Shown in pieces: positions 1 to 31,627 of a stretch of 31,627 nt of DNA. The DNA is from a virus. The stretch spans positions 1 through 31,627 of IMG/VR virus record IMGVR_UViG_3300025646_000198. One strand, given 5' to 3'. Below the pieces are notes generated by a model. It searched no databases, was not told where the DNA came from, and saw only the letters and a list, made by a program, of their open reading frames with translations. Position 1 is the stretch's first letter, and the number at the start of each line of letters is the position of its first letter. A program made the position numbers and the translations under genes.

Positions 1-146
1 TCTAACGGATTATAACCACTTGTGTCAATGTTTCTAATACGACCAAAATGAAGAACATAACCAAAGTCATTGTTATCAATATCTTCTTTGGCAATACCCA
101 TCATTAGTTTTGGGTTAGCGTTGATTTCGCTTTGGACTGCTTCCTT
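1..146. repeat. Terminal direct repeat, left copy
   Basis: Positions 1-146 match 31482-31627. Bases 21-146 (126 bases) are identical; in the first 20 bases only 16, 18 and 20 differ. Both copies encode the same part of the tail fibre in the same frame. This is best explained as overlap of a circular assembly rather than as biological terminal repeats. Confidence 0.9.
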
Positions 147-1016
147 AAATGTATAATGGTTTCCTTGAATACCTGCGAATTGAACTGCCATACCTTTGGC
201 AATATCTCCACTCGCTTTACCATAGTATTCTAAATCTTGACCAATGTTCAAATAGTTTTCATTGTATAAACCAAGTTTTAATGAACCATATTCATCTTCC
301 CATGATAATTTACCCGTATCGGCAGTTGTGCTACTACCTGCGTCTGGTGTTAAGCGTAATGTTCCTACTTGAAAGACAACTTCTTCGGCAGTAGAACCAT
401 TGATATAATATAAACGACCTACACCTTCATCTTCAATGTAAAAGTATCGGTCATCATAAGCGTCACCTGTTAATGTTGGTAAAGCACCAGCAACCGTAAT
501 ACTATCGGCTTTGTCTAATTTCGTTGATAACGCAAAGAACCAATCTTCATAAGGTTCGGTATCATCAGCAGGAACAACCAAATCGGCAACAGGTGCGTAA
601 CCAATATCTAAATTAAATATATCGCTAACAACGATACGCCCAGTAACCGATAAGATTTCCGTTGGGTTTTCTTCATCATCAAACTCAACTTCGCCATTGT
701 ATGCCTTAAAGACAACGACTAACTTACCTTTAACAGCACTATACCAACTGTTAAGAGTGACTTCGTAATATGAATCTTCGCCAGTTCCAACTTTTGAACA
801 AATGTCTAATCGTCTTTCACCATCGGCACGTTTCGTGACAATCGTAGCAGTAGAACTATCAATGTCTTCGCCAAGATAAAAGCGAATCGTTGTCGCTTCC
901 GTAGAACCGATAAATTCTTCACCGATATAAGCAATCGGCTTACCATTGACATCGTATGGTTTGCGATCACCTTTGTTGTAATAGACGCTAATGATTTTTG
1001 CTTGATTAAAGTTCAT
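1..1016 (-). CDS. Tail fibre / receptor-binding protein, N-terminal part (continues at 31481 across the contig junction)
   Basis: An open frame starts at ATG 1016 and is still open at base 1 (338 codons). An AGGTAGG ribosome site lies 7 bases before the ATG. The same frame resumes at the right edge of the window: residue 305 here is the first Met of the 31585-28232 frame, and 304 + 1117 residues gives a 1421-residue protein. The N-terminal ~170 residues are beta-rich (NFNQAKIISVYYNKGDRKPY, later RIVVSDIFNLDIGYAPVADL) and loosely recall the N-terminal attachment domain of Gram-positive baseplate upper proteins (BppU). That comparison is low confidence. The gene follows the tail hub gene, the usual place for a host-recognition fibre. 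Residues 332-334 differ between the two contig ends (TSG versus TGD), as expected from strain variation. Confidence 0.85.
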   Translation of the reverse strand, partial: MNFNQAKIISVYYNKGDRKPYDVNGKPIAYIGEEFIGSTEATTIRFYLGEDIDSSTATIVTKRADGERRLDICSKVGTGEDSYYEVTLNSWYSAVKGKLVVVFKAYNGEVEFDDEENPTEILSVTGRIVVSDIFNLDIGYAPVADLVVPADDTEPYEDWFFALSTKLDKADSITVAGALPTLTGDAYDDRYFYIEDEGVGRLYYINGSTAEEVVFQVGTLRLTPDAGSSTTADTGKLSWEDEYGSLKLGLYNENYLNIGQDLEYYGKASGDIAKGMAVQFAGIQGNHYTFKEAVQSEINANPKLMMGIAKEDIDNNDFGYVLHFGRIRNIDTSGYNPL

Positions 1017-6852: not shown

Positions 6853-7713
6853 TTAGGCTGCTTCGGTGAATTTCATCGCATAGGAGTCGATGACTAACAC
6901 AGAGGCTTCGGAAGCGTCAGGATAAACGAGTTCGGCTTGTAAGCGAACACCATTGAAGTTTTCCGAGTTAATCGCACGAAGCATGTTTAAGGAGTATGGG
7001 TAAGCAACCCCTTCATAGTTTAATAATAAGAAATCAACACCAGTGACATGTTGCGAGGAAACAACTTGAAGACCAAATAAAGTCCCAATCGTTCCAGGAA
7101 GTTGTCCTTGTCCATCGAACAACGCTTTGAAGTCTGCGTCTTGACGGAGTAATTTTTCACCAGCAGTTCCAACAACTAACGTGGTTGGTAAGATACCATT
7201 GGTGGCGTTGGAGAACGAGGTGTTAGAAACACCGTCAATCTTAACGGAAGCACCTAATTTGAAGGTTGCGATACCTTCGGCAACAGCGTCAATGAACGAA
7301 GCACCATTGGTGTAGGTTTTCGCTTGGGCTAATGCGAGTAAGTCCGTATAGAACTTGCCACCCAATGAGTTACCCATTTTGACAGCGACTTGGGCAGTTT
7401 TCGCACCCACGATGTCAATAGCGATTGCGTCAATAGCAATTTGTGGGATTTTTTCGTCAGCGTGTAAAGCACGTGTCATAACAACAGTTGCTTTCTTACT
7501 ACCGACTTGTGCCGTATCAAAGTCATCACCAGCACTTGCGTCTTCGATCGCAGGAGCAAGGTCATACCAGAACTCGGCAGTTTCAGCACCGATTAAACCA
7601 CCTAATTCGGGTTTAACGGTAACACCTGGAATAACACCAGAGATTCCTTGAACGGTTGGAATTAACACACCCGTAGCAACGGTATCTCCTAAATAAGATT
7701 TTGCGTAAGCCAT
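6853..7713 (-). CDS. Major capsid protein (HK97-fold)
   Basis: 286 residues. The sequence is Ala/Gly/Val-rich, with an N-terminal arm (SYLGDTVATGVLIPTVQG) and a spine-like helix (ADEKIPQIAIDAIAIDIVGAK). Further features are KMGNSLGGKFYTDLLALAQA and a C-terminal β-region ending SYAMKFTEAA, the layout of small HK97-type capsid proteins. It is preceded by a scaffold gene, as in SPP1-like head clusters, and followed at once by a strong terminator. Its codons are visibly more GC-rich than neighbouring genes, as often seen for the most expressed virion gene. GAGG lies before the ATG. The capsid role is secure from context; the fold is inferred. Confidence 0.85.
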   Translation of the reverse strand: MAYAKSYLGDTVATGVLIPTVQGISGVIPGVTVKPELGGLIGAETAEFWYDLAPAIEDASAGDDFDTAQVGSKKATVVMTRALHADEKIPQIAIDAIAIDIVGAKTAQVAVKMGNSLGGKFYTDLLALAQAKTYTNGASFIDAVAEGIATFKLGASVKIDGVSNTSFSNATNGILPTTLVVGTAGEKLLRQDADFKALFDGQGQLPGTIGTLFGLQVVSSQHVTGVDFLLLNYEGVAYPYSLNMLRAINSENFNGVRLQAELVYPDASEASVLVIDSYAMKFTEAA

Positions 7714-16482: not shown

Positions 16483-16709
16483 AAATTGACTTCTCCTTTA
16501 ATCCAATTTCGTAAATCTTCAAAGTTTTTCATAAATAAATCGTCTAAATCAAAACGCATTAAAAACTTTATGCCATACGCTATGCCAAGTTGTTCAATGA
16601 CCACCACATTCTTACCAATTTTAGCAAGAACTGTGAATACAGGTGCTTTTTCGACCTTATAATCTATCTTCAAATCATCAAACAAGTCTTCTAATCTATT
16701 CTTCGCCAT
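16479..16709 (-). CDS. Hypothetical small protein
   Basis: 76 residues from ATG 16709 (MAKNRLEDLFDDLKIDYKVE), chosen because AGGAGG lies 7 bases upstream. The frame extends to 16772 but only into the Mom-like gene. The pattern is a helix, then strands (APVFTVLAKIGKNVVVIEQL), then a C-terminal helix with FMKNFEDLRNWIKG. It overlaps the end of the Mom-like gene by 14 bases. Function unknown; it could be a partner of the Mom-like protein because the two are coupled. Confidence 0.6.
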   Translation of the reverse strand: MAKNRLEDLFDDLKIDYKVEKAPVFTVLAKIGKNVVVIEQLGIAYGIKFLMRFDLDDLFMKNFEDLRNWIKGEVNL

Positions 16710-17508
16710 AATCTTCCTCCTGGAACAATGATACCACTTCTGTTGGTTTTTGGTAATTGTTTTCAAAAACATTCATGTTAAATTGTGGTTGTTCTATTTT
16801 TATAAACGATTTACTACCAACTCTTTTCTTAAAAACAAGTGAATCTGCTTTGGGATTCTTAATGTTTTTATATTCTTCGTATGAATCCAACACCTTTCTT
16901 GCTTTTTTGTTTAATGGCATAATATATCTAAACATTAGTCCGTCTATCTTGGCAATTCCTTTATGTTCGCAAAAACGTTGTGTTAGCCAAAAAATCTTTG
17001 TTTTGTTTTCAAACTTTGCGTTTTCAATACATAATTGTTTGGCACTTCGTGGGTGAATCTTCTCTTTGGTGTTCTCGTCCATATAAACACTTGTCCAAAA
17101 ACTACCAATGTATCGAAATGAACTTGCTTGATAAACATAACCAACCTTGCCCATAATTCCATCGGCTAATGTGTAAAGAAACTGAACACTTGGCATGTTT
17201 TGTTTTAACCACTTGACTAAAACGCTAATGGTTTGGCTTCCAAAAGCACCATTGTCATTAACATCTTTGCTAAAACACATCTTTCCAATCTCTAAATAAT
17301 CACTTGTTTTGTAATCGTGATTTGGAAAAATCTTTTTAATTGTTCCAAGTGGTTGAGTTCCATAACCAAGAGTGACAACGCCTTTCAATACATTATCTTC
17401 AAAGAATCCAAGATAAAACTTGTTTAATCTCGGCATAATTTTTGAATAATGATACTTGAAAACAAAACTTATTGCCTTGTTCTTGTCTATTTCTTTGATT
17501 TCTAACAT
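16696..17508 (-). CDS. Mom-like DNA-modification protein (GNAT-fold)
   Basis: 270 residues. It shows the ordered signatures of the phage Mu Mom family: KYHYSKIMP (19-26), FYLGFFEDNVLKGVVTLGYG (31-50), EIGKMCFSKDVNDNGAFGSQ (73-92), LYTLADGIMGKVGYVYQASS (111-130) with D116, and FRYIGSF then HPRSAKQ. Mom converts adenine to a carbamoylmethyl form and shields phage DNA from restriction. One position differs: the family's GHxGxVYQA reads GKVGYVYQA here. No Com-type activator is visible nearby. It lies in the recombination block right after RusA. Family call fairly secure; the exact base product is unknown. Confidence 0.75.
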   Translation of the reverse strand: MLEIKEIDKNKAISFVFKYHYSKIMPRLNKFYLGFFEDNVLKGVVTLGYGTQPLGTIKKIFPNHDYKTSDYLEIGKMCFSKDVNDNGAFGSQTISVLVKWLKQNMPSVQFLYTLADGIMGKVGYVYQASSFRYIGSFWTSVYMDENTKEKIHPRSAKQLCIENAKFENKTKIFWLTQRFCEHKGIAKIDGLMFRYIMPLNKKARKVLDSYEEYKNIKNPKADSLVFKKRVGSKSFIKIEQPQFNMNVFENNYQKPTEVVSLFQEEDYGEE

Positions 17509-24661: not shown

Positions 24662-25057
24662 AAAACCTCCACACCACGATTATATCGTATCATATTTTAT
24701 TTGCTACCTATTGTTATATAAAATATGAACACTATTTATATATAGTGATTATATATATTAAAGAATAGATATAATATTTTATCTATACTATCATAGACAT
24801 TATAAAATATATTGACATTATAATTAAAGAATTATATATTTCTTAAAAAATATAAATATATTTAATTATTAACTATCACTTAATACGAATATAACTATCA
24901 TTTAACACAACAAGTAAATATACTTAACAACTAAAAAACAATACAAAAAGAAATTAAGCGATTTAAGACACGATTTTTTTTCGGTAATACAAATACTCTA
25001 CCCAACCCATTATCGTTGCTCTATGGGGTTATAAATGGCGTTAGAAGTGATTTCACA
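24662..25057 (-). promoter_or_regulatory. AT-rich control region of the early operon
   Basis: About 400 bases with no gene. A TATAAT box lies near 24692-24687, shortly before the first early gene, without a clear -35. Direct repeats TAACTATCACTTAA (24870-24883) and TAACTATCATTTAA (24892-24905) are 22 bases apart, about two helical turns. GACATTATAA occurs at 24796-24805 and 24814-24823. Inverted repeats are CACTAT/ATAGTG (24730-24747) and GTGATTTCAC (25047-25056). AACTATCACT also occurs near 12568 in the other AT-rich region. This looks like an operator-rich promoter region. Confidence 0.5.
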
Positions 25058-25321
25058 AATAAAAACACCCACCGAAGGAGGGCGATGGGTGTAGGTCAAT
25101 GGGTATATTGGTAATCGCTGTGTCGAACGGATGGCACATTTGTTTATTTGTTCCACTTGATACAATCTCGTGTTAGCGATTAGTATTCTGGTGGAGGTGA
25201 TGGGTATTACCCCATGTTTCTATAACACTCGGAGGTTAGCGTTACAGTCATCAAACACCCCCGTAGATAGACAAGTGCCTCTCAATACAATTTCTCACTT
25301 TTGTAGAAAGCACTTATCTAT
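25058..25321 (-). ncRNA. Candidate structured non-coding RNA with three anti-Shine-Dalgarno motifs
   Basis: A ~260-base minus-strand unit with a TATAAT at 25332-25327 and a terminator at its end. Stems: 25321-25310 with 25278-25267 (12 bp, one G-U), 25247-25238 with 25229-25220 (10 bp, two G-U, 8-base loop AACCUCCG), outer GUGUUU/AAACAU beside it, 25182-25175 with 25119-25112 (8 bp), and the terminator stem. CCUCC occurs in that loop, in AUCACCUCC (25201-25193, identical to the tail of bacterial 16S rRNA) and in CCUCCUU (25081-25075). No open frame with a ribosome site is present on this strand. Function not known; titration of ribosome sites is inference. Confidence 0.55.
25061..25092 (-). 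terminator. Intrinsic terminator of late block / ncRNA
   Basis: On the minus strand ACACCCA (25092-25086), a 14-base loop and TGGGTGT (25071-25065) run into TTTTATTTG. A perfect 7-bp GC-rich stem with U-tract makes it one of the strongest terminators in the genome. Confidence 0.85.
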
Positions 25322-25326
25322 AAATT

Positions 25327-25332
25327 ATTATA
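25327..25332 (-). promoter_or_regulatory. TATAAT box in front of the ncRNA candidate
   Basis: A perfect -10 hexamer on the minus strand, 3 bases after the stop codon of the last late gene. The expected start point coincides with the first base of the 12-bp stem of the RNA. The -35 region (around GTGGCA) does not match consensus. Confidence 0.45.
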
Positions 25333-25334
25333 CA

Positions 25335-26192
25335 CTATTTTACGACTTCTGCCACTTCATAGATACGCAGTTCTTTGACCAACGAACCGTTATCGTGGGA
25401 TTCAATGAATTTAGAGATATAATTTCTACGGACATCATAGATTTTAGCATAATCGTTCATAATATCAAGCCCTAATTTGAACGCAAAGCCATAGGACATA
25501 ATGGAAAGACCAACATTGAATACCGAATCATAGACTGCTTGACCGATAGACACATCGTTAGAGATGACTGCCGATGAAGAAATTGCCAATGTGACAAAGG
25601 TTAAGACCATTTTAGGGAATAATTCTCGTAGAATGGTGTTCTTTTCACTGTATAGTGCCATTTGAATACGATTTTTTATATCATACGCACTTAAATATGT
25701 TTGCGAATCAACAAATGGGAAGTCAAAATCGCCATGTTTAAGTTTCTTGATTAACAAGAAATGCCATTTGGTCAATGAATAGTCATCTAATTTAGGTTGT
25801 ATCTCTCTTAACGACAATTTATATAAATCTTCGGGTATGCCATTAGCGAACAACACATCTTTGACATATTGTTCTCGTTGCTTGATATAGTCTTGCTTCA
25901 CATAAAGACCAAACGTAGTCAATAACCCTTTGTCCTTGATTAGCGTAATCGCCTTATTTAACAAGTTCTTTGCTTCTGTGTAATTCAACTTTGCTTCACC
26001 ACTAATCTTGCCATCAGGAATACCAAAGTAAATCCACGCAATTTGTAAAAGGTATTTGAAAAAAAGTTCTAACCAAAAGCGTTCGGTAAGAATTTTGTTT
26101 AGGTCAAGTCCTACTTGTAAAACCGAATAAACAATTAAGATACCCAACACCAATGGGTATAATACAAACTTGTACGTATCTATCTTTTTCAT
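25335..26192 (-). CDS. Multi-spanning membrane protein, unknown function
   Basis: 285 residues. Membrane segments at ~11-28 (FVLYPLVLGILIVYSVL) and ~39-57 (WLELFFKYLLQIAWIYFGI). A soluble charged middle follows (70-190; NYTEAKNLLNKAITLIKDKG). Two more segments are at ~197-215 (MVLTFVTLAISSSAVI) and ~225-245 (GLSIMSYGFAFKLGLDIM). It is the last and largest gene of the post-fibre membrane cassette and overlaps the 66-residue protein by 4 bases. Possible roles are lysis, superinfection exclusion or envelope remodelling. No enzyme motif is visible. Confidence 0.7.
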   Translation of the reverse strand: MKKIDTYKFVLYPLVLGILIVYSVLQVGLDLNKILTERFWLELFFKYLLQIAWIYFGIPDGKISGEAKLNYTEAKNLLNKAITLIKDKGLLTTFGLYVKQDYIKQREQYVKDVLFANGIPEDLYKLSLREIQPKLDDYSLTKWHFLLIKKLKHGDFDFPFVDSQTYLSAYDIKNRIQMALYSEKNTILRELFPKMVLTFVTLAISSSAVISNDVSIGQAVYDSVFNVGLSIMSYGFAFKLGLDIMNDYAKIYDVRRNYISKFIESHDNGSLVKELRIYEVAEVVK

Positions 26193-31200: not shown

Positions 31201-31627
31201 GATTATCAATGTCCGTTTCGGCAGTGGTTAATTCACTACTATTTTCCCAACGAGAGTTCGCACTATTCCAACGCAAGATTTGATTATCGGCAATAGAAGT
31301 AATGTGAATATCTTGTAATTCACTTAACTTTGGTTCAAAGGTTGGACGAACAAGAATAATACCATTGTTCGCAATTTTTACAACAACTGCCATTAAGATT
31401 TTAGCATTAGGTGCTGTGGGTTGAGTAATGGTTAATTCACCAGGAGTAGAACCACCACTATTAAACCATAATAGATTTTGTTCTAACGGATTATAATCTC
31501 CTGTGTCAATGTTTCTAATACGACCAAAATGAAGAACATAACCAAAGTCATTGTTATCAATATCTTCTTTGGCAATACCCATCATTAGTTTTGGGTTAGC
31601 GTTGATTTCGCTTTGGACTGCTTCCTT
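28232..31627 (-). CDS. Tail fibre / receptor-binding protein, C-terminal part (starts at 1016 beyond the junction)
   Basis: Continuation of the fibre whose start lies at 1016; the frame is open to the right edge. Using fused numbering, residues ~425-464 hold three 14-residue repeats (TAETDIDNLEGRMD, TAESDIDSLESRMT, TAENDIDDIEDG), typical of a trimeric coiled coil. Next come the tail-fibre phrases LYVALDTNKLYRWSGSAYV and FRGDLGQTAYDNADTALDN. Several copies of VGIGTSSPA and three copies of an ISRN(I/V)AD-NP-L-VN module follow. The C-terminus is a compact beta domain ending KIYGVNY. Repeated GIGT-SP shaft modules are common in phage fibres that end in an S74 chaperone, but no such self-cleaving domain is visible. 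Role inferred: host recognition at the tail tip. No terminator follows; the next gene begins 12 bases on. Confidence 0.85.
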   Translation of the reverse strand, partial: KEAVQSEINANPKLMMGIAKEDIDNNDFGYVLHFGRIRNIDTGDYNPLEQNLLWFNSGGSTPGELTITQPTAPNAKILMAVVVKIANNGIILVRPTFEPKLSELQDIHITSIADNQILRWNSANSRWENSSELTTAETDIDNLEGRMDTAESDIDSLESRMTTAENDIDDIEDGTTVVPKALADQNGDVINTTYLRSATASSTYIPLSQKGVANGVVPLGSNGKVPSQYLSGEQDDLAEYDSLEDFPEVGETDILYVALDTNKLYRWSGSAYVVISETLALGTTSTTAFRGDLGQTAYDNADTALDNTLNIIDGTQTLTDTRVTNSATNVVPLIVNTLPSHSTNLQEWQVNGSQVSRMNLDGRFATTTGMGNSGSSNYAYVNVANNGTIISRNIADANPSLIVNLANASSTGDILRLQFAGANKLEITKDGFINQNGTRLLTTPGTQNLFFGVNSGNLSTTGSQITSIGTEALSNITSGSLSVAVGHRALLSSSTGSSNVAVGVNSGRSITTGGTNTFVGRDSGYNASQLVSASNSTAVGFEAYTNKSNQMVFGNSSVSEFVFNRNTSAVLIAPNIGIGVTPLTKLHIAGAGSQELRIENTNTTVGLSDVIGTLSFRSNDASSGGTGIAGSISSISEASSGVLYGLAFNTKNFASETEKMRITNDGKVGIGTSSPASLLSLRSSGDTYLTIDTNLNANNAGIRLSESSTPTTNGAELVYDGSANLFHIKTGGASFTERLTIVRDSGNVGIGTSSPATQLEVALPTTTNGVYETTIFKTLDATTPANTGSLHFSSGYNSDAGLRYSTIQAKRNNGAFTSNLILQPSGSNVGINETSPSAQLQVKSGATTRVPLIVDTLASHATNLQEWKVNNITQIFIDQYGVMRAEYVANKITSNNALIHPSSSGTLISRNVADTNPALTVNLANASATGNIQVWQKAGVAQAYISNDGTFATSQIRNYTTINNALITPSTTGTTISRNIADSNPALVVNQNNSSSTGKIVSFRFNGVEKSYIDKDGNFSGATIIPSYTLLGSRISDGTLTVTDIDTFDEIQIRVELYVNSDEIIWGVAKLPVADLTYANAGQDREGVGAVCIDDSGTIASAYVFRNNTDGTQLDIKLRNASTVKIYGVNY
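31482..31627. repeat. Terminal direct repeat, right copy
   Basis: Right-hand partner of bases 1-146. The match runs exactly to the last base of the window, as expected for a closed circle or a terminally redundant genome assembled from short reads. Confidence 0.9.

Follow-up and report, generated by a model that had tools for sequence, protein, structure and literature searches.

In tmRNA, the acceptor carries a G3-U70 pair and A73 and ends in CACCUCCACCA, the D stem is missing, and a long arm replaces the anticodon arm. In plant RNA viruses, tRNA-like structures form the 3' end of the genome, and most of them have pseudoknotted acceptors. The G3-U70 pair alone, when moved into other tRNAs, makes them substrates of AlaRS (PMC6515474). 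Another group of RNAs that bears on the present case is the alpha-r14 sRNAs, which have three hairpins with an ultraconserved CCUCCUCCC in their unpaired regions (PMC10746234). In the literature searched, a partial collection, no phage RNA of the kind presented here was found described. The locus lies in a window of 31,627 nucleotides (the whole stretch of DNA that was analyzed, IMG/VR record IMGVR_UViG_3300025646_000198). On balance, it is probably an autonomous small-RNA gene of a tailed phage that encodes a tRNA mimic, one that would serve as a decoy or substrate for proteins that bind tRNAs.

The window contains genes for a portal, a terminase, a Sak-type annealing protein, RusA, and MazG-like and Mom-like proteins, and it can therefore be assigned to a tailed phage. 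The closest terminase homologues in named records belong mostly to the Bacillota and their phages, with at most 44% identity. The ORF at 16696-17508 encodes a member of the Mom DNA-modification family (E 1e-56 to Pfam PF25680). Almost identical peptides (KEAVQSEINANPKLMMGIAKEDIDNNDFGYVLHFGRIRNIDT...) are encoded at the two ends of the window (1-150 and 31480-31627). The contig therefore looks like a nearly complete genome in circular permutation, its ends interrupting a tail gene.

The locus and its minus-strand RNA

The RNA gene sits where the late/lysis genes end and ahead of the early genes (Table 1). A TATAAT box had been pointed out on the minus strand when the sequence was first read, and it is present at 25332-25327, directly past the stop codon of an upstream ORF of 285 amino acids. 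The protein of this ORF has no match in Pfam or PHROG, and its AlphaFold model (pLDDT 40) is too poor for use. The stem expected at the predicted first base of the RNA was recovered as a hairpin from about +1 (25319; z -3.97), as was the strong terminator, with its stem at 25092-25065 followed by a T tail. In the AT-rich gap ahead of the early genes, a 44-bp stretch with ATCGTGTCTTAAATCGCTT (24945-24988), 82% conserved in a relative, is a possible origin or early control site.

Table 1. Features of the RNA locus, with positions in the window
Feature	Position	Strand	Location or basis
Candidate -35, GTGGCA	at 25355	-	sequence
-10 box TATAAT, the RNA's own promoter	25327..25332	-	sequence
Upstream ORF, 285 aa, membrane-type, synteny anchor	25335..26192	-	ORF list and relatives
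5' hairpin, start at about +1 (predicted start 25319)	25266..25321	-	fold z -3.97
tRNA-like unit 1, 74 nt	25189..25262	-	unconstrained fold, scan, relatives
CCUCC no. 1	25231..25235	-	central-arm loop
CCUCC no. 2	25193..25197	-	acceptor 3' strand, next to ACCA; U70 of G3-U70 lies in it
Possible tRNA-like unit 2, 73 nt	25109..25181	-	acceptor and ACCA; weak fold
CCUCC no. 3	25081-25077	-	terminator loop
Intrinsic terminator: 10-bp stem, then U tail	25055..25092	-	sequence; stem 25092-25065

The choice of strand is decided by folding. The minus strand folds at -77.7 kcal/mol (z -3.48), a value that none of 200 shuffles attains, whereas the plus strand (z -0.94) is equaled by 35 of 200; the minus strand is thus the correct call, as the sequence-only reading had proposed, and its predicted fold includes seven G-U pairs. 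That reading had also raised the alternative of a coding gene on the plus strand, which is not supported: the sole plus-strand ORF at the locus (25170-25475) overlaps the conserved ORF on the minus strand.

The tRNA-like units

Unit 1 opens with a 7-bp acceptor helix (GGGGGUG/CACCUCC, pair probability ~0.66), followed by an 8-nt linker that has no stem where the D arm would be, a 10-bp central arm in the place of the anticodon arm, the linker AAAC, a T-arm-like hairpin of 5 bp (AUGGG/CCCAU) stacked directly on the acceptor, the acceptor 3' strand, and an encoded ACCA end. The central arm (25247-25220) is the 10-bp stem with the loop AACCUCCG that had been noticed from the letters, and its helix has a pair probability of ~1.0. 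The minimum-energy fold of the unit, calculated without constraints, is identical to the centroid (z -3.34). The segment AUCACCUCC, which contains the second CCUCC, had been taken for a free linker and turned out to be mostly base-paired in the predicted fold; it comprises the last part of the T stem together with the seven acceptor bases (the 3' strand of the acceptor-like helix) that precede the discriminator A and CCA.

The 31.6-kb window was scanned for 7-bp acceptors that directly adjoin a 5-bp hairpin and are followed by NCCA, and unit 1 was the only match with a score of 20 or more. When the region of unit 1 and that of its counterpart in related phages (described below) were each shuffled, the observed score was reached in 0 of 4,000 shuffles, and any match at all appeared in 14 and 2 of 4,000, respectively. 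With default settings, ARAGORN calls no tRNA or tmRNA gene at the locus and no tRNA gene in either the window genome or the relative; Rfam, searched at gathering score for the window and at permissive E-values for both loci, gives nothing credible, with no tRNA match up to E 10.

A possible second unit begins seven nucleotides past the first. Its acceptor (AAUCGCU/AGCGAUU) is a perfect 7 bp followed by ACCA, and corresponds to a long-range stem previously described as 8 bp; the 7-8 bp pairing is present as claimed and is weak, with a pair probability of ~0.5. The interior of the unit is weak as well, with one mismatch in the T-arm, no stable center, and a z of -1.39 for its own fold, and it does not carry G3-U70. 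Two 7-bp plus NCCA units within 270 nt were seen in 1 of 4,000 shuffles. Unit 2 has no counterpart in the two relatives and no sequence similarity to their unit.

Conservation in relatives and wider searches

The 285-aa protein was searched for in viral contigs, genome contigs, phages, and two partly overlapping draws of 398 sampled genomes each, and the only relative to emerge was an IMG/VR contig, IMGVR_UViG_3300037502_002621 (64,576 bases), which holds two related phage genomes. In this contig (L266-L269), the genomes lie in tandem and are ~91-98% identical in their matching parts, and the arrangement may reflect a concatemer of mixed origin, a pair of prophages, or a chimeric assembly. The ORF is 82-83% identical in the relatives. 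At the syntenic place there is again a TATAAT (3865-3870 in L002, and in L003), preceded by TGn, and 8 nt past it, directly downstream of the 285-aa gene, starts a tRNA-like unit of 67 nt, followed by a terminator that is 95-96% identical and has CCUUCC as its loop. The relatives lack the 5' hairpin. Their two copies of the unit differ at 1 of 67 positions, even though an 11-nt insertion is found immediately ahead of the promoter and a long one past the terminator.

The relatives' unit (GGCAAUA...UCGGG-UUGU-CCCGA-UAUUGCC-ACCA, with the acceptor GGCAAUA/UAUUGCC) follows the plan of unit 1: a 7-bp acceptor, a linker of 8-9 nt without a D stem, a central arm, AAAC (identical in both), a 5-bp T-arm hairpin, and ACCA. 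Both units have the 7-bp acceptor, the 5-bp T stem, and the discriminator and CCA of a tRNA, and both lack the D arm and a UUCRA T loop, with GUAAUA in unit 1 and UUGU in the relatives. In a scan of the 64.6-kb contig, the two orthologous units scored highest, at 31, and two other matches reached at most 25.5. The relatives' unit has C3-G70 in place of G3-U70, so alanine cannot be a common feature of the units.

Despite the large sequence divergence between unit 1 and the relatives' unit, all acceptor and T-stem pairs are kept. In a MAFFT alignment based on sequence alone, 100% of the cells pair and 5 pairs are changed on both sides, compared with a shuffle mean of 1.7 (a single shuffle of 500 reaches 5) and with 0-1 when the structure is slid along as a control; in an element alignment, 6 of 12 pairs are changed on both sides and none is broken, all these counts resting on effectively two sequences, that is, two distinct types that are maybe not strict homologues. 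The score of the alignment between the two types was reached by 37 of 1,000 shuffles.

These helices speak to the proposal that the units are decaying tRNA genes, the functionless relics of captured tRNAs that have lost the D arm and T loop. Decay would explain why an RNA of tRNA size with CCA has no recognizable decoding features, as well as the poor fold of the second unit (z -1.39), and tRNA genes are frequent in phages. Relics would hardly be expected to keep their helices intact in both phage types through paired changes with none broken, to retain promoter and terminator, and to agree at 66 of 67 positions between the two relative genomes (which differ at 1), and we consider decay quite improbable. 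An accidental likeness is unlikely too. Here the RNA would be a structured 3' element or an unrelated small RNA, for example a processing or stability element that closes the late transcript, whose three-way junction and CCA only happen to resemble a tRNA; a site where the late gene block ends, finishing in a strong terminator, suits such an element, and one chance look-alike in ~3.2 Mb is known. Against it stand the recurrence of ACCA and the whole plan at the syntenic locus of diverged relatives, the low shuffle rates in both regions, and the RNA's own conserved -10 box.

The relatives also bear on the CCUCC motifs. The sequence-only reading had seen in them an anti-Shine-Dalgarno regulatory RNA, whose exposed CCUCC would repress translation by base-pairing to ribosome-binding sites that read GGAGG. 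All three segments are indeed present and exceed chance (a shuffle mean of 0.21 per 270 nt, with three reached in 2 of 4,000 shuffles), hairpin loops hold two of them, and the alpha-r14 sRNAs, with CCUCCUCCC in unpaired hairpin parts, offer a precedent (PMC10746234). Absence of the motif from relatives had been named in advance as a finding that would refute the idea, and no CCUCC occurs at the syntenic place in either of the two relatives, where the central arm, acceptor, and terminator loop were inspected, which contrasts with the ultraconserved motif of alpha-r14 and leaves the anti-Shine-Dalgarno reading unsupported. Moreover, one of the three segments is paired inside the acceptor helix, and the scores of the Rfam ar14 model, 12.6 and 15.1 bits, are far below its cutoff of 58.8 and come mainly from the terminator. 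What stands of the earlier reading is a structured minus-strand RNA with its own promoter and terminator, whereas its mechanism now appears very doubtful. The CCUCC in the loop may have a role in the phage of the window alone.

Further members were sought more widely. A DNA similarity search in phages and plasmids gave nothing useful, and a TerL search reached only homologues at 51% or less. A covariance model was built on the three units, and in ~3.3 Mb of other loci it detected no further member; its one match in 398 genomes lies in a coding region resembling mutL and was set aside as chance. The tRNA-like scan of ~3.2 Mb of other phage loci returned tRNA-type genes and a single look-alike, in a Morganella prophage (L249). 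The aligned phage relatives of this look-alike have the hairpins without an acceptor or CCA, and it was rejected as a coincidence. The look-alike is a hairpin array (6940-7000) between a Q-like and a holin-like gene, and parts of its hairpins recur in Proteus and Providencia phages. In another locus (L079, 8778-8852), a tRNA-shaped gene with CCA, uncalled by ARAGORN, lies directly ahead of tRNA-Met.

Function and comparison with known systems

If the locus encodes a tRNA mimic, the RNA gene would yield one or two tRNA-shaped RNAs. Decoding is unlikely, since the units have no D arm and their T loop is not of the standard kind. What unit 1 and the relatives' unit keep is the 12-bp stack of acceptor and T stem, the discriminator A, and CCA, which are the parts read by RNase P, the CCA-adding enzyme, and synthetases. 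With the enzyme-read parts conserved and the decoding parts missing, we infer an RNA that would be bound as a tRNA look-alike and might also undergo trimming and charging. The RNA would be transcribed, trimmed to its CCA end, and then act through binding by proteins that recognize tRNAs. Most likely, it would stand in for a host tRNA or serve as a decoy for one, for instance where a defense system or toxin attacks tRNAs, and the replacement of the cargo within a kept promoter-terminator frame would fit a decoy under arms-race selection. Other roles, as an aminoacyl donor, a stability element, or a relic, remain beside it as candidates. Unit 1 carries G1-C72, G2-C71, G3-U70, and A73, the alanine identity set, and its charging by AlaRS is therefore a specific prediction.

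One could, more tentatively, consider a fast-evolving class of phage tRNA mimics, D-armless and non-decoding, that would be carried on an autonomous cassette with a constant promoter and terminator and an exchangeable tRNA-like cargo, and would divert host enzymes or toxins acting on tRNAs. Since tRNA finders miss such RNAs, mimics of this type could be common in phages and yet absent from annotations. Should the tRNA enzymes of the host bind or charge them, they would provide small tools for probing tRNA-targeting phage defense, as well as an example, besides tmRNA, of a tRNA-like RNA of the alanine type.

Among the known systems, the alpha-r14/NfeR1 anti-Shine-Dalgarno sRNAs (PMC10746234) share with the phage RNA several hairpins, CCUCC in loops, and an intrinsic terminator, but the phage motif is shorter and not conserved, and the phage RNA has at its core a three-way junction that ends in CCA. 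The tRNA-like domain of tmRNA (Rfam RF00023/RF04321) resembles unit 1 in the G3-U70/A73 acceptor ending in CACCUCCACCA, the missing D stem, and the long arm; the phage unit differs in having no tag reading frame, pseudoknots, or standard T loop, and in the relatives no G3-U70, and the Rfam model of permuted tmRNA gives only a 9.7-bit match. Phage-encoded tRNAs, such as those of T4 and T5, have in common with the unit the tRNA size, the encoded CCA, and a gene outside the protein genes; unlike them, the unit has neither a D arm nor a UUCRA T loop, has a long central arm without a clear anticodon, and is uncalled by ARAGORN. The tRNA-like structures of plant RNA viruses (PMC4810235) are likewise virus-encoded tRNA mimics with a CCA end, whereas the phage has a DNA genome in which the unit forms a gene of its own.
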